NCBI RefSeq assembly: GCF_000092405.1 | Contig: NC_014220.1 | Coordinates: 558,001-622,000 of the forward strand | From: Syntrophothermus lipocalidus DSM 12680 | GTDB taxonomy: Bacteria > Bacillota > Syntrophomonadia > Syntrophomonadales > Syntrophothermaceae | Length of the DNA stretch: 64,000 nucleotides | Reading direction: 5' to 3' | Shown: positions 33,492 through 55,774 of the stretch, in pieces | How the letters are laid out: each line of letters starts with the position of its first letter | Position numbering within the stretch: position 1 is the first letter of the stretch | Notes under the pieces: model-generated | What the model was told of the DNA's origin: nothing | What the model saw: only the letters and a program-made list of their open reading frames with translations | The model's database searches: none | Made by a program: the position numbers and the translations under genes

Positions 33492-33507
33492 AGCAAGATT
33501 CGTGCCA
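33492..33507 (-). promoter_or_regulatory. Sigma-54 promoter facing the TIGR04076 gene
   Basis: On the minus strand the sequence reads TGGCACGAATCTTGCT: the -24 box TGGCACG and -12 box TTGCT, with exact GG-N10-GC spacing. It lies in the 374-bp gap between the TIGR04076 gene and the regulator gene. Confidence 0.85.
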
Positions 33508-33691: not shown

Positions 33692-35098
33692 CTAGTCTCT
33701 TAGTTTTCGGTAGAGCACTGTGCGGTGAATTCCCAGCAGTTGTGCTGCTTCGCTTATCCGACCTTCACATTCCGATATCACCTGATTTATATACTCCTTT
33801 TCCACCATTTGCAATACGCTCTTTAGGGTTCCTCTGTAGACTGTACTTGTCTGGCGTAGGTGGCTCGTATCGCTTGAACGACGACTGCTATTTGGCAGGG
33901 ATTGATCGCCCTCAAAATTCAAATAGTCACTGGTGGAGGTAACAACTAGTCTTTCGACAACGTTGCGCAACTCGCGCACGTTTCCGGGCCAGTTGTAATT
34001 CGTGAATGCTTCGAGTGTTTGCTTGGTAAATGTCTTTTTGAAAGAGTACTTCCTATTCAATTCATCCAGAAACTTATTAGCGAGAATAGGGATGTCCTCG
34101 GGTCTTTCCCTCAGAGGCGGCAGCTTTATCGGTACCACATTGAGACGGTAATACAAGTCTCTTCGAAACAGACCTTGTGCCATCATGGTTTTTAGGTCTC
34201 TATTGGTGGCGGCGATAAGGCGCACATTAGTTCTGTGAATACTCGTGCTGCCCAATCGTTGCACATCACCTGTCTCTAGGACTCTCAGCAGCTTGGATTG
34301 TACGGGTAACGGCAATTCCGCGACTTCATCGAGAAACAGTGTTCCTTTATGGGCGATCTCGAACAGTCCTGGTTTCCCTTGGGTGCTGGCACCTGTAAAC
34401 GCGCCAGCAACATACCCGAAAAACTCCGACTCCATAAGTTCACTGGGTATTGCAGCACAATTCACCGGAATGAACGGTTCTTTAGCACGTAGACTGTTGC
34501 GATGTATATACCTTGCCATTACTTCTTTACCGGTTCCTGATTCCCCGAACAGCATTATTGTGCTGTCAGTTTTGGCAGCGGCACTGGCAACAGTCATGAC
34601 CTGCTGCATTTGGGGGCTTTCAGCCACTATCTCCTTCCCTTCGGAATCTGCTTCTGCTAAATATTCCATCGCCTTTTTATATCGATTAGCGTTGGATCTT
34701 TCACGTTCCAGAAGCTCCATAAACTTATCGAACAAGTGTTGATCTCGTGAGTTGGTGATAACCATAACAACGTCGCCATTCTTGTCCAATACGGGCGTGC
34801 TGGTGGCCATCAGAGTAGTCCCGTACTTGCTCCTGATGAGGCCGGTAACTACTGAGCGAGTTTCGGTAGCCTCCCATGCTGTCGAGCGATCATACAACCC
34901 TTCTTTAACCAAATCCCTGACGTTTTTCCCTACCAGCTTCTTATGATCAACTCCTAGCAATCTTCCCGTGGAGCGGTTAGCCAACAGTACATTGCCGGAC
35001 TTATCGGTAACAAGTATGGCGTCGTAGGAATTGATAATAACCTGAATCAATTCTTCTCGTGAACAGACTACTGCGACTTCCGAGCTTTCCCAAGCCAT
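33692..35098 (-). CDS. Sigma-54 enhancer-binding regulator with PAS domain (1)
   Basis: 468 residues. Residues 12-120 are a PAS sensor (ILVTDKSGNVLLANRSTGRL), then a short coiled linker, an AAA+ domain with Walker A GESGTGKE (185-192), the sigma-54-contact loop GAFTGA (232-237), Walker B LFLDEVAELP, and a Fis-type helix-turn-helix (RISEAAQLLGIHRTVLYRKL) at the end. There is no phosphorylation receiver domain, so a ligand probably binds the PAS domain (inference). RBS AACTCCTCC complement upstream of ATG 35098. A close paralogue is at 48641. Confidence 0.95.
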   Translation of the reverse strand: MAWESSEVAVVCSREELIQVIINSYDAILVTDKSGNVLLANRSTGRLLGVDHKKLVGKNVRDLVKEGLYDRSTAWEATETRSVVTGLIRSKYGTTLMATSTPVLDKNGDVVMVITNSRDQHLFDKFMELLERERSNANRYKKAMEYLAEADSEGKEIVAESPQMQQVMTVASAAAKTDSTIMLFGESGTGKEVMARYIHRNSLRAKEPFIPVNCAAIPSELMESEFFGYVAGAFTGASTQGKPGLFEIAHKGTLFLDEVAELPLPVQSKLLRVLETGDVQRLGSTSIHRTNVRLIAATNRDLKTMMAQGLFRRDLYYRLNVVPIKLPPLRERPEDIPILANKFLDELNRKYSFKKTFTKQTLEAFTNYNWPGNVRELRNVVERLVVTSTSDYLNFEGDQSLPNSSRRSSDTSHLRQTSTVYRGTLKSVLQMVEKEYINQVISECEGRISEAAQLLGIHRTVLYRKLRD

Positions 35099-37112: not shown

Positions 37113-37128
37113 TGGCATGCATTTTGCT
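37113..37128 (+). promoter_or_regulatory. Sigma-54 promoter of the beta-oxidation operon
   Basis: TGGCATGCATTTTGCT with exact GG-N10-GC spacing. The predicted leader runs about 265 nt to the thiolase ATG at 37403. Confidence 0.8.
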
Positions 37129-37402
37129 CCAAAGACAAAAATGAAAGCATACCAGACGAAGGTATGCCGAGTAAAAGGGGATCTCAGGAAAGGGGGGGTC
37201 AACTAGACAAATCAGTTGATACGTTATCAAGATGAGCTAAACGTCAAAATCGGCCTGTTTGTCAACGCGAAGATGGTTAACGAACAAGTCCCTGCATGCA
37301 GTGTCTTCCTCGCTCTTTTGGCGGTTATGAAGTAATCGTTCAGTCTAGGGGTCTGTGTCCGACAATTATCTTCGCCCAGAGAAAAGAAGGAGGTATTTCG
37401 AT

Positions 37403-38599
37403 ATGCCGTATACCAAAGCTTTTATCCCCTACGGAGGATATTATTCAACGCCATTTGTCCGCTGGAATGGATCGCTGAAAGGGGAAAACCCTGTTGTACT
37501 AGGGGCTGCCACTGCAAGACGCTGGTTTGTGGAAAAGAAGATCGACCCGACCGTGCTTGATTTTCTGTACTATGGGCAGACAGTTACCAGTCCCCTAACG
37601 TTTTTTGGCCATGTTTATGCTGCTGCAGTGATTCTCGATCGGGTGAAAGATATACCCGCCATGGGCTTGAATCAAGTTTGTACAACGTCGGTAACAAGCC
37701 TGGCGTTGGCAGCTAACGATGTTGAGCTTGGAATGCACGAAGCAGTCTTCTGCCTTTCCAGTGATCGTACTTCAAGTCACGCTATAGTACTGACGCCCAA
37801 CCCCAAGACTGGCGGAGTGGACATAGAGAACATCGTTCTCGACAACTTCGACCGTGACCCTTCACCGGGGGCAGGTTTGAAGATGTATCAGACGGCTGAG
37901 GCAGTGGCTAAAGAAGTTGGTATTACCAGAGAAGAATGTGACGAAGTAGCTTTGTTAAGGTATGAGCAGTATAACGACGCGCTAGCTAATGATCGGGCAT
38001 TCCAAAAGAGATATATGTTCCCGGTGGAAATAAAGGCTGGCAAGAGCGTGAAGCTGATCGAGGAGGACGAAGGGATAACGTCTACTTCGAAAGAGGCACT
38101 TGCTAAGTTAAAACCCATGGAACCCGGCGGAGTGCTGACCTTCGGCAGCCAGACTCATCCTGCCGACGGCAATTGTGGGATTATAGTCACAACCCAAGAA
38201 AAGGCCAAAGAATTGAGTTCGGATCCGAATATAACCGTACAAATCCTCTCGTACGCGGTAGTAAGGGTTGCTCCGGGACGTATGGCAGGGGCACCGGCAC
38301 CTGCATTAGCGGCAGCCCTAAAGAACGCGGGGTTAAGCGTAAGCGATCTCAGTCAAGTAAAAACCCATAATCCGTTCATCGTAAATGACATAAATACCGG
38401 CAGGCAATTAGGAATAGACCAGAAGATGATTAACAATTACGGATCCTCAATGGTTTACGGGCATCCCCAGGCACCGACTGCTGGAAGGGCCATTATCGAG
38501 CTGATCGAAGCATTGGCGGTGCAGGGCGGAGGTTATGGCGCGTTCACAGGATGTGCAGCAGGCGATATAGCCGCCTCAATGGTAATAAAAGTGAGCTAG
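37403..38599 (+). CDS. Thiolase family acyl-CoA acetyltransferase
   Basis: 398 residues. Catalytic Cys in LNQVCTTSVTS, His in YGHPQAPTAGR and the second Cys in GYGAFTGCAAGD form the thiolase triad; THNPFIVND replaces the more usual NEAFA loop, so it belongs to a divergent branch. It would cleave 3-ketoacyl-CoA to acetyl-CoA plus a shortened acyl-CoA. ATG 37403 follows AAGGAGG. First gene of the operon, behind a sigma-54 promoter. Confidence 0.9.
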   Translation: MPYTKAFIPYGGYYSTPFVRWNGSLKGENPVVLGAATARRWFVEKKIDPTVLDFLYYGQTVTSPLTFFGHVYAAAVILDRVKDIPAMGLNQVCTTSVTSLALAANDVELGMHEAVFCLSSDRTSSHAIVLTPNPKTGGVDIENIVLDNFDRDPSPGAGLKMYQTAEAVAKEVGITREECDEVALLRYEQYNDALANDRAFQKRYMFPVEIKAGKSVKLIEEDEGITSTSKEALAKLKPMEPGGVLTFGSQTHPADGNCGIIVTTQEKAKELSSDPNITVQILSYAVVRVAPGRMAGAPAPALAAALKNAGLSVSDLSQVKTHNPFIVNDINTGRQLGIDQKMINNYGSSMVYGHPQAPTAGRAIIELIEALAVQGGGYGAFTGCAAGDIAASMVIKVS

Positions 38600-38646
38600 G
38601 AGCCGGAGTCAAAACACGGGATTTCGCCACCAAGCTTCGCAGGTGA

Positions 38647-38717
38647 GGAGCGTAAATGAGATTGTCCTTGGCGCCGAGTTGTCCAACGAGGCGCGAGGCG
38701 CTAAGGCGAAACGCTCC
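38647..38717 (+). other. Structured intercistronic RNA element
   Basis: Three stems nest: GGAGCGT (38647-38653) with ACGCTCC (38711-38717); CTTGGCGCC (38667-38675) with GGCGCTAAG (38697-38705, one G-U); and an inner GTTG-CAAC. It occupies the 233-bp gap between the thiolase and CoA-transferase genes. No T-tract, so not an ordinary terminator. Confidence 0.6.
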
Positions 38718-38832
38718 ACACACGTACAAGTGTAACGGAACTGCGGTCAGGATGTCGCCGGAATTAATGTAAACCAATGAACGTATAGCATGTGCTCCTA
38801 TTACTGTCTTTTTCGAAGGAGGAGATGAAGGT

Positions 38833-40122
38833 ATGCCAGCGAGATGGGAGAAACTGGAGAGAATTCCAGCACCACATTTCATCCCCACATTTGGACCCCT
38901 ATCGGGGATGAGGTTGCTGCTTTCCGGTAGTATAGTAGCGGCACCGTTTGCTGCCCAGTTGTGCGCCGACTTTGGCGCGGAAGTAATTCACATTGAAATG
39001 CCCAGAATAGGAGACACCTATCGTACTCAGAAACCAGTGATAACAAGTGAAGACGGAACAAAGGCCATGGCTGCAGCATATTGTCAGAAACGCAATAAGT
39101 TGAGCTTTGCCCTCAACCACAATCTTAGCATCCCGGAATCCAAGGAAATATTCTATTCATTGATCAAGCAATGTGACGTATGGCTTGAGAATATGGTGTG
39201 GCTAGACAAACTGGGTGTTGACTGCAAAGAGCTATTGGAAATAAACCCCAAACTTATCATCGTGCATGTCAGTGGTTTTGGACGTCCTCAGTTTGGTGGC
39301 GACCCGCGCATATGCAACCGGCCCTCCTATGACCCGGTTGGTCAATGCGAGGGTGGACTGGCTAATATGATTGGTTTTCCAGACGGCCCGCCGATGTACG
39401 CACAACCCTTTGTCAATGACTATCTGACTGCTACCTATGCGTTTGGAGCAATTTGTGCCGCCTATATCCACGTGCTTAAAGGCGGAAAAGGACAGGAGAT
39501 TGACATAGCGCAGGTAGAGACCCAGGCACGTAACCTTGACGATCACTGGGCTGCTTATATCAACCTTGGAGTAGAGAAAAGCCGTGTCGGCAACCGGGTT
39601 CCCATATTCCAGCCTGCTTCGATGCACAAGTGCAAGGATGGTCGCTATGCGTTCATAGGGGCCTTCGGTGAAGCGGCCTATTACCGTGCCATAGATGGCT
39701 TGGGTTTGAAGCGCGAGGAATGGAAGTGGGAGGAGTGCGGTCAGTCAAAGGAGGCGCTCGAGTCTGAAAAAGGCCGGGCTCTGTATGAATATATAGACAA
39801 GTGGTTCAGCGAGCGCACCGCGCAAGAGGCTCAGGACCACATGGACAAGTATAAGACGCCAGTGGCTATCGTTAAGACTCCAAAGGATATCTATGCCGAT
39901 CCCCACTGGCATGCCAGGGGGAACTTCATTAGGTACTACGTCCCTGCCATTGACAGAGAGGTCGAAGCGTTCGGTTTCGTTCCAAAGTTCATGGACACTC
40001 CAGGCCAGGTGTGGCGCGGGCAGGTGGACATCGGTTATGACACCGAGAGGATACTCAGCGAACTTCTCGGCTACACCGACGTCGAGATCGAATCACTCAA
40101 AGGGAGAGGCATAATCGACTAG
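38833..40122 (+). CDS. CaiB-like class III CoA transferase
   Basis: 429 residues. Family III CoA transferase: FGPLSGMRLLLSGSIVAAPF, ADFGAEVIHIE, the catalytic Asp in AQPFVNDYLTATYAF and the end KFMDTPGQVWRGQVDIGYDT. The layout resembles E. coli L-carnitine CoA-transferase CaiB. It moves CoA between carboxylates, so it could activate the growth substrate at the cost of an acyl-CoA. RBS GAAGGAGGAG before ATG 38833. Confidence 0.88.
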   Translation: MPARWEKLERIPAPHFIPTFGPLSGMRLLLSGSIVAAPFAAQLCADFGAEVIHIEMPRIGDTYRTQKPVITSEDGTKAMAAAYCQKRNKLSFALNHNLSIPESKEIFYSLIKQCDVWLENMVWLDKLGVDCKELLEINPKLIIVHVSGFGRPQFGGDPRICNRPSYDPVGQCEGGLANMIGFPDGPPMYAQPFVNDYLTATYAFGAICAAYIHVLKGGKGQEIDIAQVETQARNLDDHWAAYINLGVEKSRVGNRVPIFQPASMHKCKDGRYAFIGAFGEAAYYRAIDGLGLKREEWKWEECGQSKEALESEKGRALYEYIDKWFSERTAQEAQDHMDKYKTPVAIVKTPKDIYADPHWHARGNFIRYYVPAIDREVEAFGFVPKFMDTPGQVWRGQVDIGYDTERILSELLGYTDVEIESLKGRGIID

Positions 40123-40245
40123 AGTCGGCGCAAGGGAAACTGACGTGATGTCGTGCGAACCACCATAGGGGACAGTTGCACCGGGGGAACTTAGCGGAGG
40201 TTGAATCGTCTGGGAGTTGGCTTTCGGAGCGTGAGCTCATTTAGG

Positions 40246-40268
40246 CCTGAACCGCCAAGAGGTTCAGG
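40246..40268 (+). other. Intercistronic hairpin before hbd
   Basis: CCTGAACC (40246-40253) and GGTTCAGG (40261-40268) form a perfect 8-bp stem with a 7-nt loop, 50 bp before the hbd start. No T-run. Confidence 0.55.
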
Positions 40269-40317
40269 TAGGGTAGCTGACTGTAAAGTCACAAACAAAT
40301 GATAGGGGGTATTTATC

Positions 40318-41175
40318 ATGACAATCAAGAAAATAGGCGTGTTGGGAGCCGGCGCAATGGGGACAGGTATAGCCCAGGTTGCGGCACAGGCCGGTTATGA
40401 AGTAGTCCTGGGTGATGTTGAGATGGCCTTCGTCGAGAGGTCGGTGGCCAATATAGGCAAGCTTCTGGACAAGAACGTAGAAAAGGGCAAAATGACCGCT
40501 GAACAAAAGAATGCTATCATGGGCCGCTTCACTCTTACCACGAACCTAGATGATTTTGCCACCGTTGACTACTTCATAGAAGCCATTGTCGAGGACCTCG
40601 AGATCAAGAAATCTACTTTAGCGAAGGTTGACAAGGTATTAAAACCCGATGTCGTCATGGCTAGCAACACTTCCTCAATGTCTATCACGGTTCTGGGATC
40701 TGCCACCAATAGGCCGGAAAAATTTGTGGGTATGCATTTCTTCAATCCAGTTCCGGTTATGAGGCTTTGCGAAATCATCCGCGGCTACAAGACCAGCGAT
40801 GAAACCGTGAAAATAGCTTCTGAGCTTGCTCAGGCCTTTGGCAAGACCACTGTTGAAGTCAAGAAGGACACCCCAGGATTCATCGTAAATCGGGTAATGA
40901 TGCCTCAGTTCCTGGAGGCTATTCGCCTGGTTGAGGAAGGGGTTGCTACTCCGCAGGACATCGACACCGCAGTGACCCTGGGTCTCAACTATCCGATGGG
41001 GCCTTTTACCTTGATGGACTTCACCGGAATCGATATCTCAAAGTTCGTTCTCGATTACTTCTACGAGGAAACCAAGAATCCGTTCTGGGCTCCTCCCTAT
41101 ACTCTGAAGGCTATAATCAGGGCTGGTAAGCTGGGCAGGAAGACCGGAGCGGGATGGTACGACTATAGCAAGTAA
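40318..41175 (+). CDS. hbd: 3-hydroxybutyryl-CoA dehydrogenase
   Basis: 285 residues. Rossmann loop GVLGAGAMGTGIAQVAAQAG, catalytic His in GMHFFNPVPVM and the C-terminal domain (NRVMMPQFLEAIRLVEEGVA, TLGLNYPMGPFTLMDFTG) are typical of the clostridial Hbd. Oxidises 3-hydroxyacyl-CoA with NAD(P). ATG after ataggggg. Third gene of the operon, preceded by a 195-bp structured gap. Confidence 0.95.
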   Translation: MTIKKIGVLGAGAMGTGIAQVAAQAGYEVVLGDVEMAFVERSVANIGKLLDKNVEKGKMTAEQKNAIMGRFTLTTNLDDFATVDYFIEAIVEDLEIKKSTLAKVDKVLKPDVVMASNTSSMSITVLGSATNRPEKFVGMHFFNPVPVMRLCEIIRGYKTSDETVKIASELAQAFGKTTVEVKKDTPGFIVNRVMMPQFLEAIRLVEEGVATPQDIDTAVTLGLNYPMGPFTLMDFTGIDISKFVLDYFYEETKNPFWAPPYTLKAIIRAGKLGRKTGAGWYDYSK

Positions 41176-41241
41176 GGGTTCATCTTTGACTATTAAGAAG
41201 GGTTCAGGGAAAGGATAGAGAGTTGCAAGGGGTGCACTGAC

Positions 41242-41320
41242 GGGCTGGAGAGCCCAAGGGATAGAGAATAGACTGAATAGATTAGGAGGAGAGGCCCTTT
41301 TACATGGAAAGGGCCCTCCT
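41242..41320 (+). other. Two hairpins between hbd and enoyl-CoA hydratase
   Basis: GGGCT/AGCCC (41242-41255) and a longer stem centred on GGCCCTTT (41293-41300) with AAAGGGCC (41308-41315), extended by AGGAG/CTCCT. No T-tract follows the larger one, so processing or stability control is more likely than termination. Confidence 0.55.
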
Positions 41321-41390
41321 GCTAGGAATTAGTGCAGCACTTGCAATTGGGGCGAAATCTAGGATCTGACGAACGAAAGGGGAGTTGCCC

Positions 41391-42170
41391 ATGTCCTACG
41401 AAGCGATTCAGGTAACCAGAGAAGGCAAGGTGGCGGTCATCACCCTGAACCGCCCTCCCATGAATCCCTTGAACAGCGCGGTATTCAGGGATTTAGCTAA
41501 AGCAGCGGACGAATTCAGCACCGATGCCAGAGTGAAGGCGGTTATTATTACTGGGGCTGGAGGTAAAGCATTTGCGGCTGGGGCAGACGTCTCGGAAATG
41601 GCTACTCTTACCCCTGTGGAGGTATACAGTTTCTGCCAGGGCTCGAAGATAGCCTTTTCGAAGCTGGAGAACCTGAATAAACCTGTTATTGCCGCTGTAA
41701 GCGGGGTGGCGTTTGGTGGTGGTTGCGAGTTAGCGTTGGCTTGCGATTTTCGTATTGCGGCGGACAACGCGAAGTTTGCCTTTCCGGAAACTGGCCTAGG
41801 TATAATTCCCGGTGGTGGTGGGACACAGAGACTGCCTAGGCTGGTCGGGGCGACCAAAGCCAAAGAACTAATCTTTCTGGGCGACATAATTGACGCTGTT
41901 ACAGCAGAGAGAATCGGGCTAGTAAACAAAGTGGTGCCGGCGGATGCCCTCATGGAAGAGGCCATGAGGATGGCCAATAAATTGGCGGAGAAGCCCTTAG
42001 TTGCCATACAGATGGCTAAGGCCGCTATTAACCTGGGGGGGAATGTTGACCTTACCTCTGGCTTGGAAGCGGAGATTCAGAATTTTGTCATCGCTTTTGC
42101 CAGTGCGGATGGCAAGGAGGGCCTATCAGCGTTCGTGGAGAAGCGAAAACCGAACTATACGGACAAGTAG
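41391..42170 (+). CDS. Enoyl-CoA hydratase (crotonase)
   Basis: 259 residues. Oxyanion-hole motif AAGADVSEM and the catalytic glutamates in GGGCELALACDF and PETGLGIIPGGGGTQRL are in place, as in clostridial Crt. Hydrates 2-enoyl-CoA. ATG 41391 is preferred over ATG 41385 because GAAAGGGGAG is 7-8 bp upstream. The acyl-CoA dehydrogenase follows directly. Confidence 0.95.
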   Translation: MSYEAIQVTREGKVAVITLNRPPMNPLNSAVFRDLAKAADEFSTDARVKAVIITGAGGKAFAAGADVSEMATLTPVEVYSFCQGSKIAFSKLENLNKPVIAAVSGVAFGGGCELALACDFRIAADNAKFAFPETGLGIIPGGGGTQRLPRLVGATKAKELIFLGDIIDAVTAERIGLVNKVVPADALMEEAMRMANKLAEKPLVAIQMAKAAINLGGNVDLTSGLEAEIQNFVIAFASADGKEGLSAFVEKRKPNYTDK

Positions 42171-42209
42171 ATGATAGACAATACACGATGGAAATGTGAG
42201 GTGAAGGGA

Positions 42210-43964
42210 ATGAGCGAGTTACCCAAAGGGGGAACCTTTCTCTTCGGTCAGACCGATCCTCAAAGCGTGTTTACTCCGGAGGACTTTACCGAAGAGCACA
42301 AGATGGTCTATCGGACGGCGTTAGGGTTTGTTAATGACAAAATCCTGCCCGTAATGGATGACCTTGAAGCCAAGAAGGAAGGCCTTAACAGGGAACTTCT
42401 ACTAATGGCTGGAGAACTGGGACTTCTGGGGACCGATGTTCCGGAGGAATACGGCGGATTCGCCATGGACAAGATCAGCACCAGCATTGTGGCGGAGTGC
42501 ATGGGACGTGCGGGTGGATTTGCCATGACCCATGGGGGGCAGACGGGTATTGGTCAGTTGCCTATTGTCTATTTTGGCACCCATGAGCAGAAGATGAAGT
42601 ACCTGCCAGGGATTGTCAGCGGCGAAAAAGTTACTGCGTACGCCCTGACTGAACCGGGGGCAGGTTCAGACGCTTTGGCTGGAAAGACATGGGCGGTCCT
42701 CAGCCCGGATGGAAAGTACTACATCTTGAATGGCACCAAACAATTCATCACCAACGCCGGATTTGCTGACCTGTACATTGTCTTTGCCAAGATAGACAGG
42801 GACAAGTTTACGGGCTTCATCGTAGAAGCCGACTCCGAAGGCCTTTCTACCGGTCCCGAGGAACACAAGATGGGGATCAAGGGCTCGTCGACCAGGACGG
42901 TGATACTTGAAGACGTAAAGGTTCCGGTTGAAAACGTTCTTTTCGAGATTGGCAAGGGACACGTAATCGCCTTCAATATTCTGAACATGGGACGCTATAA
43001 GCTGGCGGGCAATGCCGTAGGTAACTGTAAGTTCGCCATTGAGCTGTCTGCACAATATGCAAATGATCGCAGGCAGTTCAACCAACCAATCGCTGAGTTC
43101 GGTCTTATAAAGGAAAAACTAGCCGAAATGAATACCAGGACGTACATCGCCGAGAGCATGGTCTACCGTACGGGAGGATTGCTGGACCAGATGATGCACA
43201 CGTTGGATTTGTCTGGTCCTGACAGCGGCCAGGTGGCAGCCAAAGGGATTGAGGAATATGCATTGGAGTGCTCAATGAACAAAGTTTTTGCCACTGAGGT
43301 TCAAGGTTATGTTATGGACGAAGGCGTACAAATTCATGGAGGGTACGGATTCACGTCGGAGTACACCATTGAAAGGCTGTACAGAGACTGCAGGGTATAT
43401 CGGATATTCGAGGGCACTAATGAGATTAACCGGACTGTCATAACGAGTACCTTGGTCCGCCGCGGACTGAAGGGAGACATTCCGCTCAAGGAGGCCATTG
43501 AAGGATTACGGGCCAGGTTAGCATCCGGAATTGGACCACGGCAAAACGAAGGCGAATTGGTACAGGCTGCGAAAGACATGCTGCTGTTGAGCTTGGGTGT
43601 GGGCATTGATAAGTATGGTCAGGGTCTGCTCAAGCATCAAGAGATTGTCGGGAAAATCGCGGACATGGCCATGCTTACCTTTGGAATGGAGAGCGGTTGG
43701 CTCCGTGCCCAGAAGGCATTAGCCAATACTGGCGAGGCGGACGCAAGAATTAAGCTAAACATGGCGAGAGTCTTTATCAATTCCGCTATTGGCACCATAT
43801 TTAACTTGGCCAGAGAGGTCTTGGCAGGACTTGCCAGCGGTGAGGAATTAGCTGGGCTCCTGGCGGACTTGCAGAAGTTGTGCCAGTACACGCCGAGCAA
43901 CACCATAGCTATGAGACGGGAAATTGCGGCGGCTGTCTCGGCGGCGGCTAGGTATGTTGCGTAG
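42210..43964 (+). CDS. Long acyl-CoA dehydrogenase (YusJ-type, about 584 residues)
   Basis: FAD enzyme oxidising acyl-CoA to 2-enoyl-CoA. YALTEPGAGSDALAG, GIKGSSTRTVILEDVKVP, the catalytic Glu in RIFEGTNEINRTVI and HGGYGFTSEY are conserved. At 584 residues it has the extra 180-residue helical C-terminus of the YusJ/FadE group, not the 380-residue butyryl-CoA type. ATG 42210 has AGGTGAAGGG just upstream; ATG 42171 abuts the previous stop. No EtfAB genes are adjacent, so electrons must go to ETF encoded elsewhere. Confidence 0.93.
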   Translation: MSELPKGGTFLFGQTDPQSVFTPEDFTEEHKMVYRTALGFVNDKILPVMDDLEAKKEGLNRELLLMAGELGLLGTDVPEEYGGFAMDKISTSIVAECMGRAGGFAMTHGGQTGIGQLPIVYFGTHEQKMKYLPGIVSGEKVTAYALTEPGAGSDALAGKTWAVLSPDGKYYILNGTKQFITNAGFADLYIVFAKIDRDKFTGFIVEADSEGLSTGPEEHKMGIKGSSTRTVILEDVKVPVENVLFEIGKGHVIAFNILNMGRYKLAGNAVGNCKFAIELSAQYANDRRQFNQPIAEFGLIKEKLAEMNTRTYIAESMVYRTGGLLDQMMHTLDLSGPDSGQVAAKGIEEYALECSMNKVFATEVQGYVMDEGVQIHGGYGFTSEYTIERLYRDCRVYRIFEGTNEINRTVITSTLVRRGLKGDIPLKEAIEGLRARLASGIGPRQNEGELVQAAKDMLLLSLGVGIDKYGQGLLKHQEIVGKIADMAMLTFGMESGWLRAQKALANTGEADARIKLNMARVFINSAIGTIFNLAREVLAGLASGEELAGLLADLQKLCQYTPSNTIAMRREIAAAVSAAARYVA

Positions 43965-48640: not shown

Positions 48641-50149
48641 TCATTTTTTGCCTTTGTTTATTTCTTTTGCCCTCATTTTCCGGTAAAGGACAGTCCGGTG
48701 GATGCCCAAACGCTTGGCTGCCATGCCAATGCGTCCGCCACACTCCTCTAAGACCTGTTTGATGTATTCCTGTTCCACTGCTTCGAGCACACTTTTCAAT
48801 GTCCCGGAGTGTGTTGAGGGAAGCCTGGTTGGAGACTTCAATAAGGAACTAACACGACCTACTTCTTCGCTTTCATCAACATTAGCTTTGGGTGCAAACT
48901 GAACGCCTTCGATTCCAAGTAGATCGCTGACAGACGTTACTGCCATTCGCTCAACTACATTACGCAGCTCTCTGACATTGCCAGGCCAGTTGTATTTGAG
49001 AAATTCCTGAATAGCTTGCAGGCTCAGCTTTTTGTTGAAGCCGTACTTCCTGTTAAGCTCTTCCAGATACTTGTTGGCTAGAACAATTATGTCTTCCGGC
49101 CTCTCTCTGAGCGGTGGGATGTGTAAAGGAATTACGTTTAGACGGTAGTACAAATCGCTTCGGAAGACCTTTTGCTCTACCATTGATTTTAGATCCCTGT
49201 TGGTGGCGGCAATCAGGCGCACGTCAACTTTTTGGAGAGACGTTCCTCCGACGCGTTGGACTTCCTGTGTTTCCAGCACTCTTAGTAACTTAGACTGCAT
49301 CGAGAGAGGTAGTTCTCCGATTTCGTCTAGAAAAAGAGTGCCCTTGTCGGCCATCTCAAACAACCCCGGCTTACCCGTGCTGCTTGCTCCTGTGAAGGCT
49401 CCGGGGGCGTAACCGAAGAATTCGGATTCCATCAATTCGTGAGGGATGGCCGCACAATTAACAGGGATGAAAGGTTCCTGGGCCCGAGCGCTGATGCGGT
49501 GGATGTATCTCGCGAGGACCTCCTTGCCGCTTCCGGTTTCACCGACGATGAGCACTGTGCTGTCCGTCCTGGCCACACTATCACAGACGTTCAACACCTG
49601 GCGCATCTTGGGGCTCTGGGCGACGATGCTCTTAGTATCACCAGCCACGGCACTTGAGAGGTACTCCAGTACCATTTTGTAACGGTCTGATTTTGCCTTC
49701 TCTAATTCCAGTGCCTCGATGTAGTTATCTACCAAACTCTTAAAACGTGTGTTAGTTACCACCCATTGCACTTCCCCTTGAGGGTCGAGAACAGGAACAC
49801 TTGTGGCTACAAGAAGGTTTCCGTTACGAGCTTTTAACAACGCCGTTACCACAGAACGGGTCTTGATTGCTTCCATCGTGGGCGACGGGCTGTACAGCCC
49901 GCTCTTGACCAAGTCATTAACATTTTGTCCTATAAGCTCTTCGACTTGCACTCCCAGGCAATCAGCAGTTGCTTGATTCACCAGTACGACTGTACCGTGA
50001 CTGTCGGTTATAAGAATGGCGTCGTAGCTGCGCATCAAGATATTTACCAGGTCTTCTTTAGTAATGTTGTCGGCATCTGATAAATCGGCTTTTCCTTCCA
50101 CAGCTTCTAACACGTACCCGCTTTGGTTAAGAAGTTGCTCTGCATACAA
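48641..50149 (-). CDS. Sigma-54 enhancer-binding regulator with PAS domain (2)
   Basis: About 502 residues, same architecture as the regulator at 33692: an extra 35-residue N-terminal part, PAS (ILITDSHGTVVLVNQATADC), Walker A GETGSGKEVLARY, GAFTGA loop in YAPGAFTGASSTG, Walker B LFLDEIGELP and a Fis helix-turn-helix (RIGMAAKRLGIHRTVLYRKM). No receiver domain. TTG 50149 is taken as start with GGGGGG upstream; TTG 50176 is possible. A sigma-54 promoter 400 bp upstream faces the gene, suggesting control by an enhancer-binding protein, perhaps itself. Confidence 0.93.
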   Translation of the reverse strand: MYAEQLLNQSGYVLEAVEGKADLSDADNITKEDLVNILMRSYDAILITDSHGTVVLVNQATADCLGVQVEELIGQNVNDLVKSGLYSPSPTMEAIKTRSVVTALLKARNGNLLVATSVPVLDPQGEVQWVVTNTRFKSLVDNYIEALELEKAKSDRYKMVLEYLSSAVAGDTKSIVAQSPKMRQVLNVCDSVARTDSTVLIVGETGSGKEVLARYIHRISARAQEPFIPVNCAAIPHELMESEFFGYAPGAFTGASSTGKPGLFEMADKGTLFLDEIGELPLSMQSKLLRVLETQEVQRVGGTSLQKVDVRLIAATNRDLKSMVEQKVFRSDLYYRLNVIPLHIPPLRERPEDIIVLANKYLEELNRKYGFNKKLSLQAIQEFLKYNWPGNVRELRNVVERMAVTSVSDLLGIEGVQFAPKANVDESEEVGRVSSLLKSPTRLPSTHSGTLKSVLEAVEQEYIKQVLEECGGRIGMAAKRLGIHRTVLYRKMRAKEINKGKK

Positions 50150-50217
50150 TACGGGTCCCCCCTCTCTAGTCAACAATGGAAAGCAATAGAAAACTTATCT
50201 CCCCGTTGTTTGAAGAC

Positions 50218-51076: not shown

Positions 51077-51092
51077 TGGCACGTTAATTGCA
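51077..51092 (+). promoter_or_regulatory. Sigma-54 promoter of the radical SAM gene
   Basis: TGGCACGTTAATTGCA matches the consensus at every defined base (TGGCACG-N4-TTGCA). The gene starts 127 bp downstream. Confidence 0.92.
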
Positions 51093-52425: not shown

Positions 52426-52441
52426 TGGCACGGTTATTGCT
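52426..52441 (+). promoter_or_regulatory. Sigma-54 promoter upstream of the chemoreceptor-like gene
   Basis: TGGCACGGTTATTGCT, all consensus positions met. The next gene starts 550 bp downstream; the 892-bp gap 52098-52989 has no other recognisable gene, so either a long leader or a non-coding transcript is made. Confidence 0.88.
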
Positions 52442-52609
52442 ACTCACACAACAATAAGTTGATAGGTAACAGTATTCGTTTTCCTTCCATTGGTATGGAT
52501 CTTATCAGCTTGGGACTCTAATAAAACTAGGGTTGAACTTTTTTTGTATTCAAAATCGGTTTCCAATTATTCAAAATGGGCTGAGACGCGATGGTTTTGT
52601 TTCCACTTT

Positions 52610-52631
52610 ATATGTACGTAATATGTACGTA
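52610..52631. repeat. Tandem 11-mer ATATGTACGTA x2
   Basis: ATATGTACGTA at 52610-52620 is repeated at 52621-52631. Each copy contains the palindrome TACGTA. Located in the leader between the sigma-54 promoter and the chemoreceptor-like gene. Confidence 0.6.
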
Positions 52632-52718
52632 AGTATTCGAAGCTGAATAAAGTAGGCCCGAAGTATAGACTGGACTAGAGTCACGAATTGAAGTAGCGAA
52701 CTCCCTCGCCTAGCCCTT

Positions 52719-52754
52719 GGGGGGCTTAGGCTCCCCCCTGGGGCGATTCTTTTT
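52719..52754 (+). terminator. G6/C6 hairpin with delayed T-run, possible terminator or attenuator
   Basis: Six G (52719-52724) face six C (52733-52738), with T5 at 52750-52754. The T-run is 11 nt from the stem, so termination would be weak. It would end a transcript of about 300 nt from the promoter at 52426. Confidence 0.35.
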
Positions 52755-52989
52755 GATACTCGAAGGGGCCAAGAAGACTCAGTACAGTCGAACGGTCCAC
52801 AACTGCCGTAACTTAGATTAATGCGATAGCTTTACCAGGATTTGAGTTCCAGTTCTACCACTTACCTCCTTATCCTTCTTAGTTTCAAGGGCGATGGCAT
52901 GGTGGTTGCCGTCGCCTGCATTCTGTTTGGTACATGATCTCCGGTATGACGAGTTACAAGCTTTTATCTGTCTGGTTAGGAGGGTTTGC

Positions 52990-54936
52990 ATGAAACGAAC
53001 ACTTGAGACACCTGAAGGAACCGCAGAAAGAACTGGGATTATTTCAAAAACCCAGGGACGTACCGAGGCTTCAGAGCGTGATCTTGGAGGCAGAATGCGC
53101 AAAGAAAAAGCACGGGCTCGCGCGATAGCCAAGCGACAGGCGACTGCCGAGAGAATTGCTGCTGCCTCCGAGCAGCTTTTAGCTGGGATTGAGGAAATTG
53201 CAGCTTCTTCGAGTCAGTTCGCCCGGCAGATGGAGGTGTTGGCGAAAAGCACAGTCGAGTTGGCTGAAACTGCAGAATCTGCTCAAAACACTACCGTTCG
53301 CCAGAGCAATGCTTGTGACGAGATTATGAACACCTCGTCAGAGCTGCGTGGTTTCGTTGACGAGGCGGTTACGTCTATGCAACAGTCAATAATTGCCCTT
53401 GATGCAACGCTTACCGACCTTGCTGAAGCGGCTCAAATGAGCGCGAGGCTGGGTGAGCGAGTGGGTGAGTTGGAACAGAATTCCTCGGAAATAGGGGAAA
53501 TTGTGCAAACAGTGGTGATGATTGCCGACCAGACAAACCTTTTAGCCTTAAACGCTGCCATAGAGGCTGCGCGGGCAGGCGAACACGGACTTGGCTTTGC
53601 GGTTGTGGCAGATGAGGTGCGTAACTTGGCGGAAGTTTCGGACAGTGCTGCTCGTGAAATCACGACGGTAGTCCAAGAATTTCAGAAGGAAGTCAGCGAC
53701 GTTGTCGGAATTATCAGGAATATGGTACAGCAGTTTCAAAGCATACACGATCGAACAGGAAGGAATAATCAAAACTTTGCTCGGGTCGCTGAATTGTTCG
53801 AGTTATACGCTAAGATAATGGGCGATGCACTTCAGGTGATAGAGGGCTTGAAGGCCAGAGCCGACGAATTATCCAGCAATTGCAGCACAGTAGCAGTGTC
53901 ATGCGAGCAGATCAAAGTAGGCTGCCAGGAGTCGGCAACGGCGATAAAAGAACAGAGCAAGGCGATGGCGGAAATCAGTAACGGGACGCAGGCTTTGGCT
54001 GAAATGATGGAGGAATTAAAGAGCACCATTGATCTAGACAAACTGGCTGAAGAAGTAGCAGCGACGGCGGAGCAGTTGTCGGCTAGTATCGAGGAAGTCG
54101 GGGGGACGGCGGATGAGATCGCGGGAGCTTTGACCGAAATATCCGGCGCCATTGACAGCGCTTCGAGTCGAATACAAGCTTCTGTCCGGCTCACACAAGC
54201 TAATCAAGAAGGGGTTAAGAACATGAGGTCTTACATAGAGCAGTCCAGCCAAGTCCTGGAGGAACTAGAAGAGCTTTTTAAGGCAACGCGAAAGGACGCG
54301 CGACAAGGAGTATGGGGGGACTTACGAGCATGTATAGAACGTTACCCCGAAATCGCAAAATCGATCGCGGCTCTAAGCGAGCGGATTAGACTAATTGGCA
54401 AGACTGTTAATTCAATCGAGAATGTCTCTATTCAGACAAACATGCTTGCTGTTAACGGCTTCATCGAGGCGGCAACGGCTGCGGAGCACGGGCGTGGCTT
54501 TTCAGTGGTGGCTGGCGATATTCGTAGCTTGGCAAGTGAGACTGCAGACAATGCCGAGAGAATTAAAGACTTGGTAGAAGGGCTCGAAAACCAAATAAAT
54601 AAGATTAGGGACGAGTTGATGCAATCGGAGGAAATTGCGCGTAAAGCGGATAAGGCTATAATGGCGGCTGGCAAGAGAAACGATGTTGTCGAGCAATCGC
54701 TTGCTCTAATCAATTCACATCGCCCTAAGGTAAAAGCAGCTACAGAAGATATGAGCGCGGCCATTGACGAGGCGACAGAGGGGATAGCCTTGCTGGCGAA
54801 GAAGATAGCTGATCAGGCCATTCAGATACAACAGGCTTCACGAACCGCGACAGAACAAAACCAGGCTATCAACCAGATTGCCGGTTCTGTTGAGGAAATT
54901 GCTTCTACGGCTGATGAAATGCAGAGCCTTCGGTGA
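52990..54936 (+). CDS. Soluble chemoreceptor-like protein with two signalling domains
   Basis: 648 residues, no membrane span, no HAMP and no ligand domain. Heptad-rich coiled coil throughout. The first MCP tip at about 175-215 is canonical ([34 protein letters not shown]). A second at about 472-512 is degenerate ([34 protein letters not shown]): the conserved Arg of EAAR is Thr. Each tip is flanked by methylation-helix-like sequence, so the chain folds as two antiparallel hairpins. No cheA or cheW is nearby. ATG 52990 follows TTAGGAGGG. Probably sigma-54 controlled. Confidence 0.88.
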
Positions 54937-55084: not shown

Positions 55085-55774
55085 ATGGGCAAGAGATGGC
55101 GCTGGTTGTTGATTGGATTTATAAGTCTTGCAATAATCGGGGTCATTTACTGGTTGTATTTGGCTAAACAGGAAAGGGACATTGAGCCCCAGACGTTACT
55201 AGAGGAAACCCTACAAAATATGGCCGCGGCTAAAAGTTTTAGATACAAACTAGAATCCACCTTAACCATCGACGACCGAAGGGAGGTGGTAAGCCGGATA
55301 CAAGGGGAGAAAGATGACTCCGGAAGTACTCATATAAAGGGGGAGATGGTAAAGACACCAATCGACATTTATCACATCAAAGACACCACTTACAACTGGG
55401 ATAGTTCTAGTAAGAAATGGCTAGTCATTAAAGATGCAGAAGCCGATACCAGGGACGTTTTAATAGCAGAACTGGATCCACTGTCGAACCTCAATTTTAA
55501 GAGTATTTCTCAGGTGGAGAAGTTGGGCTTCGAGAAGGTTGGAGGTACCAGGTGCTTCATCATAAGCTGCAGGCCTAGCATCGAGAATGAGCTGATGGAA
55601 GTCGCATTGAAGGATTTCCGTTACAAACTCTGGGTAGACTACAGGCAAAAATATATCAGAAGAGCTACTTTAAGCGCGGTCAGCAAGAATAACCCCAACG
55701 CTCGTCTAACCATGAAAGTGGAGTTTTTTGATTTCAATCAAGATATACGAGTACAGAAGTCTGAATTGAATTGA
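55085..55774 (+). CDS. Membrane-anchored LolA-like protein, function unknown
   Basis: 229 residues. One N-terminal signal-anchor (RWRWLLIGFISLAIIGVIYW) without a lipobox cysteine, then an extracellular beta-rich part (ESTLTIDDRREVVSRIQGEK, FRYKLWVDYRQKYIRRATLS) that resembles the LolA/LppX lipoprotein-carrier fold. In Gram-positive anaerobes such proteins bind lipids or act in the wall; no partner is visible. ATG 55085 follows gaagggcggggg. Confidence 0.65.
   Translation: MGKRWRWLLIGFISLAIIGVIYWLYLAKQERDIEPQTLLEETLQNMAAAKSFRYKLESTLTIDDRREVVSRIQGEKDDSGSTHIKGEMVKTPIDIYHIKDTTYNWDSSSKKWLVIKDAEADTRDVLIAELDPLSNLNFKSISQVEKLGFEKVGGTRCFIISCRPSIENELMEVALKDFRYKLWVDYRQKYIRRATLSAVSKNNPNARLTMKVEFFDFNQDIRVQKSELN

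Follow-up and report, generated by a model that had tools for sequence, protein, structure and literature searches.

Results

Genomic setting of the double-headed receptor gene

The window, the whole 64-kb stretch of DNA analysed here, corresponds to bases 558001–622000 of the single 2,405,559-base chromosome of Syntrophothermus lipocalidus TGB-C1, a syntroph that oxidises fatty acids, carries flagella and is weakly motile (PMC3035303). Its relevant features are a gene for a double-headed chemoreceptor of the DosM type, a beta-oxidation operon, and a number of sigma-54-type sites and sigma-54 activators:

33492–33507, minus strand: exact sigma-54-type site
33692–35098, minus strand: second sigma-54 activator in the window
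37113–37128, plus strand: exact sigma-54-type site, 242 bases upstream of the thiolase gene at the head of the beta-oxidation operon
37355–43964: beta-oxidation operon (thiolase first, CoA-transferase, 3-hydroxyacyl-CoA dehydrogenase, enoyl-CoA hydratase, acyl-CoA dehydrogenase)
48641–50176, minus strand: regulator with PAS, sigma-54 activator (AAA+) and Fis-type HTH domains (domain search)
51077–51092, plus strand: exact sigma-54-type site before a radical-SAM gene
52426–52441, plus strand: exact sigma-54-type site TGGCACGGTTATTGCT, further upstream of the DosM gene
52895–52910, plus strand: sigma-54-type promoter TGGCATGGTGGTTGCC, one mismatch, ending 80 nt before the ATG
52990–54936, plus strand: orphan DosM-type double-headed chemoreceptor, 648 aa (two MCPsignal matches above cut-off; identity to operon DosM paralogues)
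53128–54024, plus strand: head 1 hairpin, about residues 47–345, tip near residue 196, canonical tip (AlphaFold2 model; alignment to T. maritima MCP 2ch7)
54025–54033, plus strand: helix break, residues 346–348, midway between the tips (AlphaFold2 model, pLDDT lower there)
54034–54927, plus strand: head 2 hairpin, residues 349–646, tip near residue 497, variant tip (MCPsignal 79.6 bits; AlphaFold2 model)

S. lipocalidus lives by fatty-acid breakdown in partnership with methane producers, and the initial annotation placed the receptor gene next to a fatty-acid locus. The locus is real and the surroundings are, roughly, a metabolic neighbourhood, but the two are not adjacent: the beta-oxidation operon lies at 37.4–44.0 kb, an AMP-binding acyl-CoA-ligase-type gene ends 6.1 kb upstream of the DosM gene, and an MFS gene, the PAS-type sigma-54 activator and the radical-SAM gene intervene.

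Domain content and predicted structure of the protein

The mechanical open reading frame of the DosM gene opens at 52894; the ATG at 52990 was chosen as the start because a good ribosome-binding site (GGAGGG) precedes it and the resulting N terminus agrees with the M-x-x-x-LE(T/K)P pattern of the paralogues described below. Translation of 52990–54936 gives 648 residues. The Pfam MCPsignal profile matched each half separately, head 1 with 124.3 bits (5e-36) and head 2 with 79.6 bits (1.6e-22), both above the cut-off and far beyond chance. No HAMP, ligand, sensory or other domain exceeded its Pfam cut-off, and no membrane span was found, the mean hydropathy never rising above 1.13 in any 19-residue window; the initial annotation had likewise seen no membrane span, HAMP or known ligand domain. 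Four methylation-type motifs, compared with 0.3 in shuffled sequences, suggest that adaptation is retained.

An AlphaFold2 model of the monomer, built on 35 DosM-type sequences, has a mean pLDDT of 88.8 and consists of two hairpins (residues 27–345 and 349–646). Foldseek searches with this model returned MCP cytoplasmic domains, and head 1 aligns to the T. maritima MCP 2ch7 across residues 65–345. The profile matches and the modelled hairpins thus agree with the initial annotation in describing a single soluble chain with two MCP hairpins, and place the second region in the MCP family rather than in another coiled-coil family. The tips are at residues 181 and 482, a separation of 301 residues, the first being canonical, as originally read.

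A known receptor family, with two further copies in the genome

That the protein might represent a new architecture was ruled out, as it is a known DosM receptor of F9-class cytoplasmic arrays. DosM, with its two tandem signalling domains, and a triple CheW are the signature genes of the F9 class, and 98% of DosM homologues are cytoplasmic and lack a transmembrane or sensory domain (PMC9321776). The V. cholerae DosM is an extended rod that carries its signalling domains at opposite ends and spans both CheA/CheW layers in a cytoplasmic array (PMC7534058). The search for other proteins with two MCP domains and for their gene neighbours, proposed in the initial annotation, returned 477 relatives from 84,980 species genomes, with CheW3-like genes adjoining DosM in nearly all of the best 80 of these 477. 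In some F9 clusters the frame of CheA, Hsp70 or DosM is split, as where DosM is in two pieces (L044; L031; G347:C38); these are perhaps frameshifts or assembly errors.

S. lipocalidus itself encodes two more DosM proteins, DosM-1 (645 aa) and DosM-2 (652 aa), which are 50% and 42% identical to the window copy, respectively. Both are encoded in an F9 cluster at 1.796–1.813 Mb, about 1.2 Mb from the window DosM, together with a HEAT-repeat protein, CheR, CheY, CheA, a ParA-type ATPase, Hsp70, the triple CheW, CheB, CheY and CheX-type proteins. The triple CheW of this cluster (CheW3) contains three CheW domains, and the F9 partners of DosM, triple CheW and CheA, are encoded in the genome at 1.80 Mb. 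The window DosM does not stand beside CheW3 in the F9 operon and is in this sense an orphan, that placement being usual rather than defining for the family.

FliM and two CheA genes are also present in the genome. The position of the window gene outside the F9 cluster, the existence of a second CheA and further CheW proteins, and the hybrids with flagellar-type CheA/CheW that have been proposed for other bacteria with partial F9 sets (PMC9321776) together raise the alternative that the window DosM has as its partners not the F9 set but the flagellar-type CheA/CheW encoded in a cluster near 1.01 Mb; as the same genome holds a complete F9 set with CheW3, we regard this alternative as unlikely.

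The two tips differ throughout the family

All 75 DosM proteins in which the spacing was measurable have their two tips 300 or 301 residues apart, and N489–G490 and a canonical head 1 with R195 are found in all 72 complete proteins. As the first scan for relatives had been selected partly on TNMLAVNG, the search was repeated with a full-length profile against 299 genomes of the phylum, 31 of which gave a match at E ≤ 1e-80. In the DosMs recovered in this way the second tip mostly reads QTN[ML]LAV[NST]G, with a few variants and with a glycine after N/S/T in every case, and the spacing is again 300 or 301 wherever both tips were located. The family pattern of tip 2, VxIQTN[ML]LAV[NST]Gx, thus differs from tip 1 and is lineage-conserved.

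The second tip of the window protein does contain EAAT and VNGFIE, as first noted, but the accompanying statement that it had lost EAAR does not hold: the variant is inherited and kept, T496 (of EAAT) being present in 18 of 18 complete Syntrophomonadales DosMs, operon copies included, with R or, once, G in the others. Phe491 and Thr496 are a lineage trait. This bears directly on the proposal that one head docks with CheA/CheW while the second is a degenerate tip that acts as a decoy or sensor. Head 2 indeed lacks the arginine present in head 1 and has G-F in place of A-A; however, the operon DosMs and all complete Syntrophomonadales copies carry the same residues, the two tips show a similar degree of conservation within the family, and published tomography has DosM tips in both baseplates (PMC7534058). 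The variant tip being constant across the family, we reject decay of the second tip and consider a decoy or sensor role very improbable.

The most interesting part of the finding is that the tips differ throughout the family. The lineage-conserved difference could mean that in every DosM each head is adapted to partners of its own, such as particular CheW3 domains or receptor trimers, giving a polar array of which the window copy would be one more case. As the two tips may nevertheless share their binding partners, we hold head specialisation to be possible but doubtful; it is compatible with the explanation favoured below, for which it would supply a function for the asymmetry.

Sigma-54-type sites upstream of the orphan gene

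Four exact sigma-54-type sites occur in the window, compared with 0.01 expected. With a −24/−12 element upstream and RpoN encoded in the genome, the DosM gene is a candidate member of the sigma-54 (RpoN) regulon, and its placement behind a sigma-54 promoter in the initial annotation is well matched by the predicted elements, one with a single mismatch and one exact, at 52895 and 52426. No site with one mismatch or fewer was found in the 29 kb around the F9 cluster, which covers both operon DosM paralogues. When all DosM upstream regions were scanned, the only matches beyond the orphans came from two Heliobacterium operon DosMs, in H. mobile and H. chlorum, where a perfect site lies just upstream of the gene (L054 6851–6866; L056 6852–6867); by chance, approximately 0.001 sites would be expected per region. 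The PAS-type regulator at 48641–50176 is, by its position, the natural candidate activator of the DosM promoter.

The leader of the DosM gene gave no Rfam match to an RNA element, and a search for regulator-binding repeats common to the upstream regions yielded nothing convincing. Approximately 290 nt after the exact site at 52426 there is a terminator-like hairpin (52730–52744, followed by a T run), with no convincing open reading frame between the two on the plus strand of 52426–52760; this interval may possibly encode a short sigma-54-driven RNA.

A second orphan DosM and the origin of the window copy

One other DosM was recognised without F9 genes beside it, that of Syntrophomonadaceae bacterium AS23ysBPME_21 (L035), on a 7.5-kb contig with no F9 gene; in L094, too, they are missing, but there the contig stops at the DosM gene itself. 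Immediately upstream of the L035 gene lies a sigma-54 activator, and a perfect sigma-54 site, TGGCATGGTTTTTGCA, ends 80 nt before its TTG start, the same distance as in the window copy. A 229-aa lipoprotein-like protein of unassigned function is encoded at 55085–55774 (plus strand) in the window and, beside hpt and guaA, in L035. The lipoprotein-like/hpt/guaA block was ruled out as an orphan-specific neighbourhood, as the 229-aa gene is present in 50 of 63 genomes of the order.

The shared promoter spacing, A498 and location hinted that the two orphans might be orthologous. In the tree, however, the window DosM pairs with DosM-1 from the same genome (100/99), and a clade uniting the orphans is rejected (p-AU 0.0014, to be read with caution because of long branches). 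Two separate origins of the orphans would explain this; alternatively, they may have a single origin that is masked by gene conversion from the operon copy or by long-branch error.

The window copy is the fastest-evolving DosM in the tree (branch 1.46–2.24). In head 1 it carries L201, where all others have R, K, S or N, and its stalk contains Pro453 and a one-residue insertion at 439. Such long-branch divergence, with features that are unique or rare, would be expected if the gene were a duplicate of the operon DosM drifting towards loss of function. We nevertheless find this improbable: the frame is open, both tips are intact, the 301-residue spacing is kept, the gene has its own promoter, and a second orphan in another genus shares the promoter spacing.

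Discussion

Taken together, the results are best explained if the window gene is an orphan third DosM that provides the F9 array with an additional scaffold, switched by sigma-54 and linking two CheA/CheW3 plates; we consider this likely, its array role being assigned by homology. As in V. cholerae, DosM dimers would make a straight rod whose two ends each bear a signalling tip; because the AlphaFold2 model is of a monomer, the rod form of the window protein would follow by homology. Were both hairpins collinear, simple arithmetic (300 × 0.15 nm) would put the tips about 44–45 nm apart. The tips would insert into a pair of opposing CheA/CheW3 baseplates and so keep the two layers of the cytoplasmic array joined; for this the window DosM would need the CheW3 and CheA of the 1.80-Mb cluster. 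A sigma-54 activator would cause it to be made, probably in response to metabolic state, as its promoter suggests, and it would then join, replace or rebuild the array of the two operon-encoded DosMs. As the protein has no sensory domain, input would come from other soluble receptors of the same array. Given L201, Pro453 and the insertion at 439, its fit into a standard array is not assured.

More tentatively still than head specialisation itself, we propose that the ends of DosM are non-equivalent, with the conserved tip 2 giving the array polarity or a choice of partners at the two plates, and that in syntrophs a separate sigma-54-controlled DosM re-tunes the array according to fatty-acid or energy status.

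Within the literature examined, the sigma-54-linked orphan DosMs and the explicit family-wide tip asymmetry are new, the priority of the latter being uncertain; the architecture was already known. The function of F9 cytoplasmic arrays is poorly understood, and an orphan DosM with a sigma-54-type promoter in two genera offers a handle on when these arrays are built or altered. The tip difference and the near-fixed 300-residue spacing likewise make it testable whether the two baseplates of the double-layered array are the same or different.

Among the closest known systems are DosM-1 and DosM-2, which share the VNGF...EAAT second tip and have a spacing of 300 residues against 301 in the window copy, but which are sited in the F9 cluster without a nearby sigma-54-type site of one mismatch or fewer. 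L035 shares Ala498, the nearby lipoprotein-like/hpt/guaA block and the sigma-54 site at 80 nt, but is 40% identical and lies in another part of the tree. Compared by description, the V. cholerae DosM (VC1403; F9 class, cluster I) resembles the window DosM in its soluble tandem MCP domains, in lacking a sensory domain and in its F9 set with a concatenated triple CheW; unlike it, the window DosM gene stands apart from the F9 operon, behind a sigma-54-type promoter.
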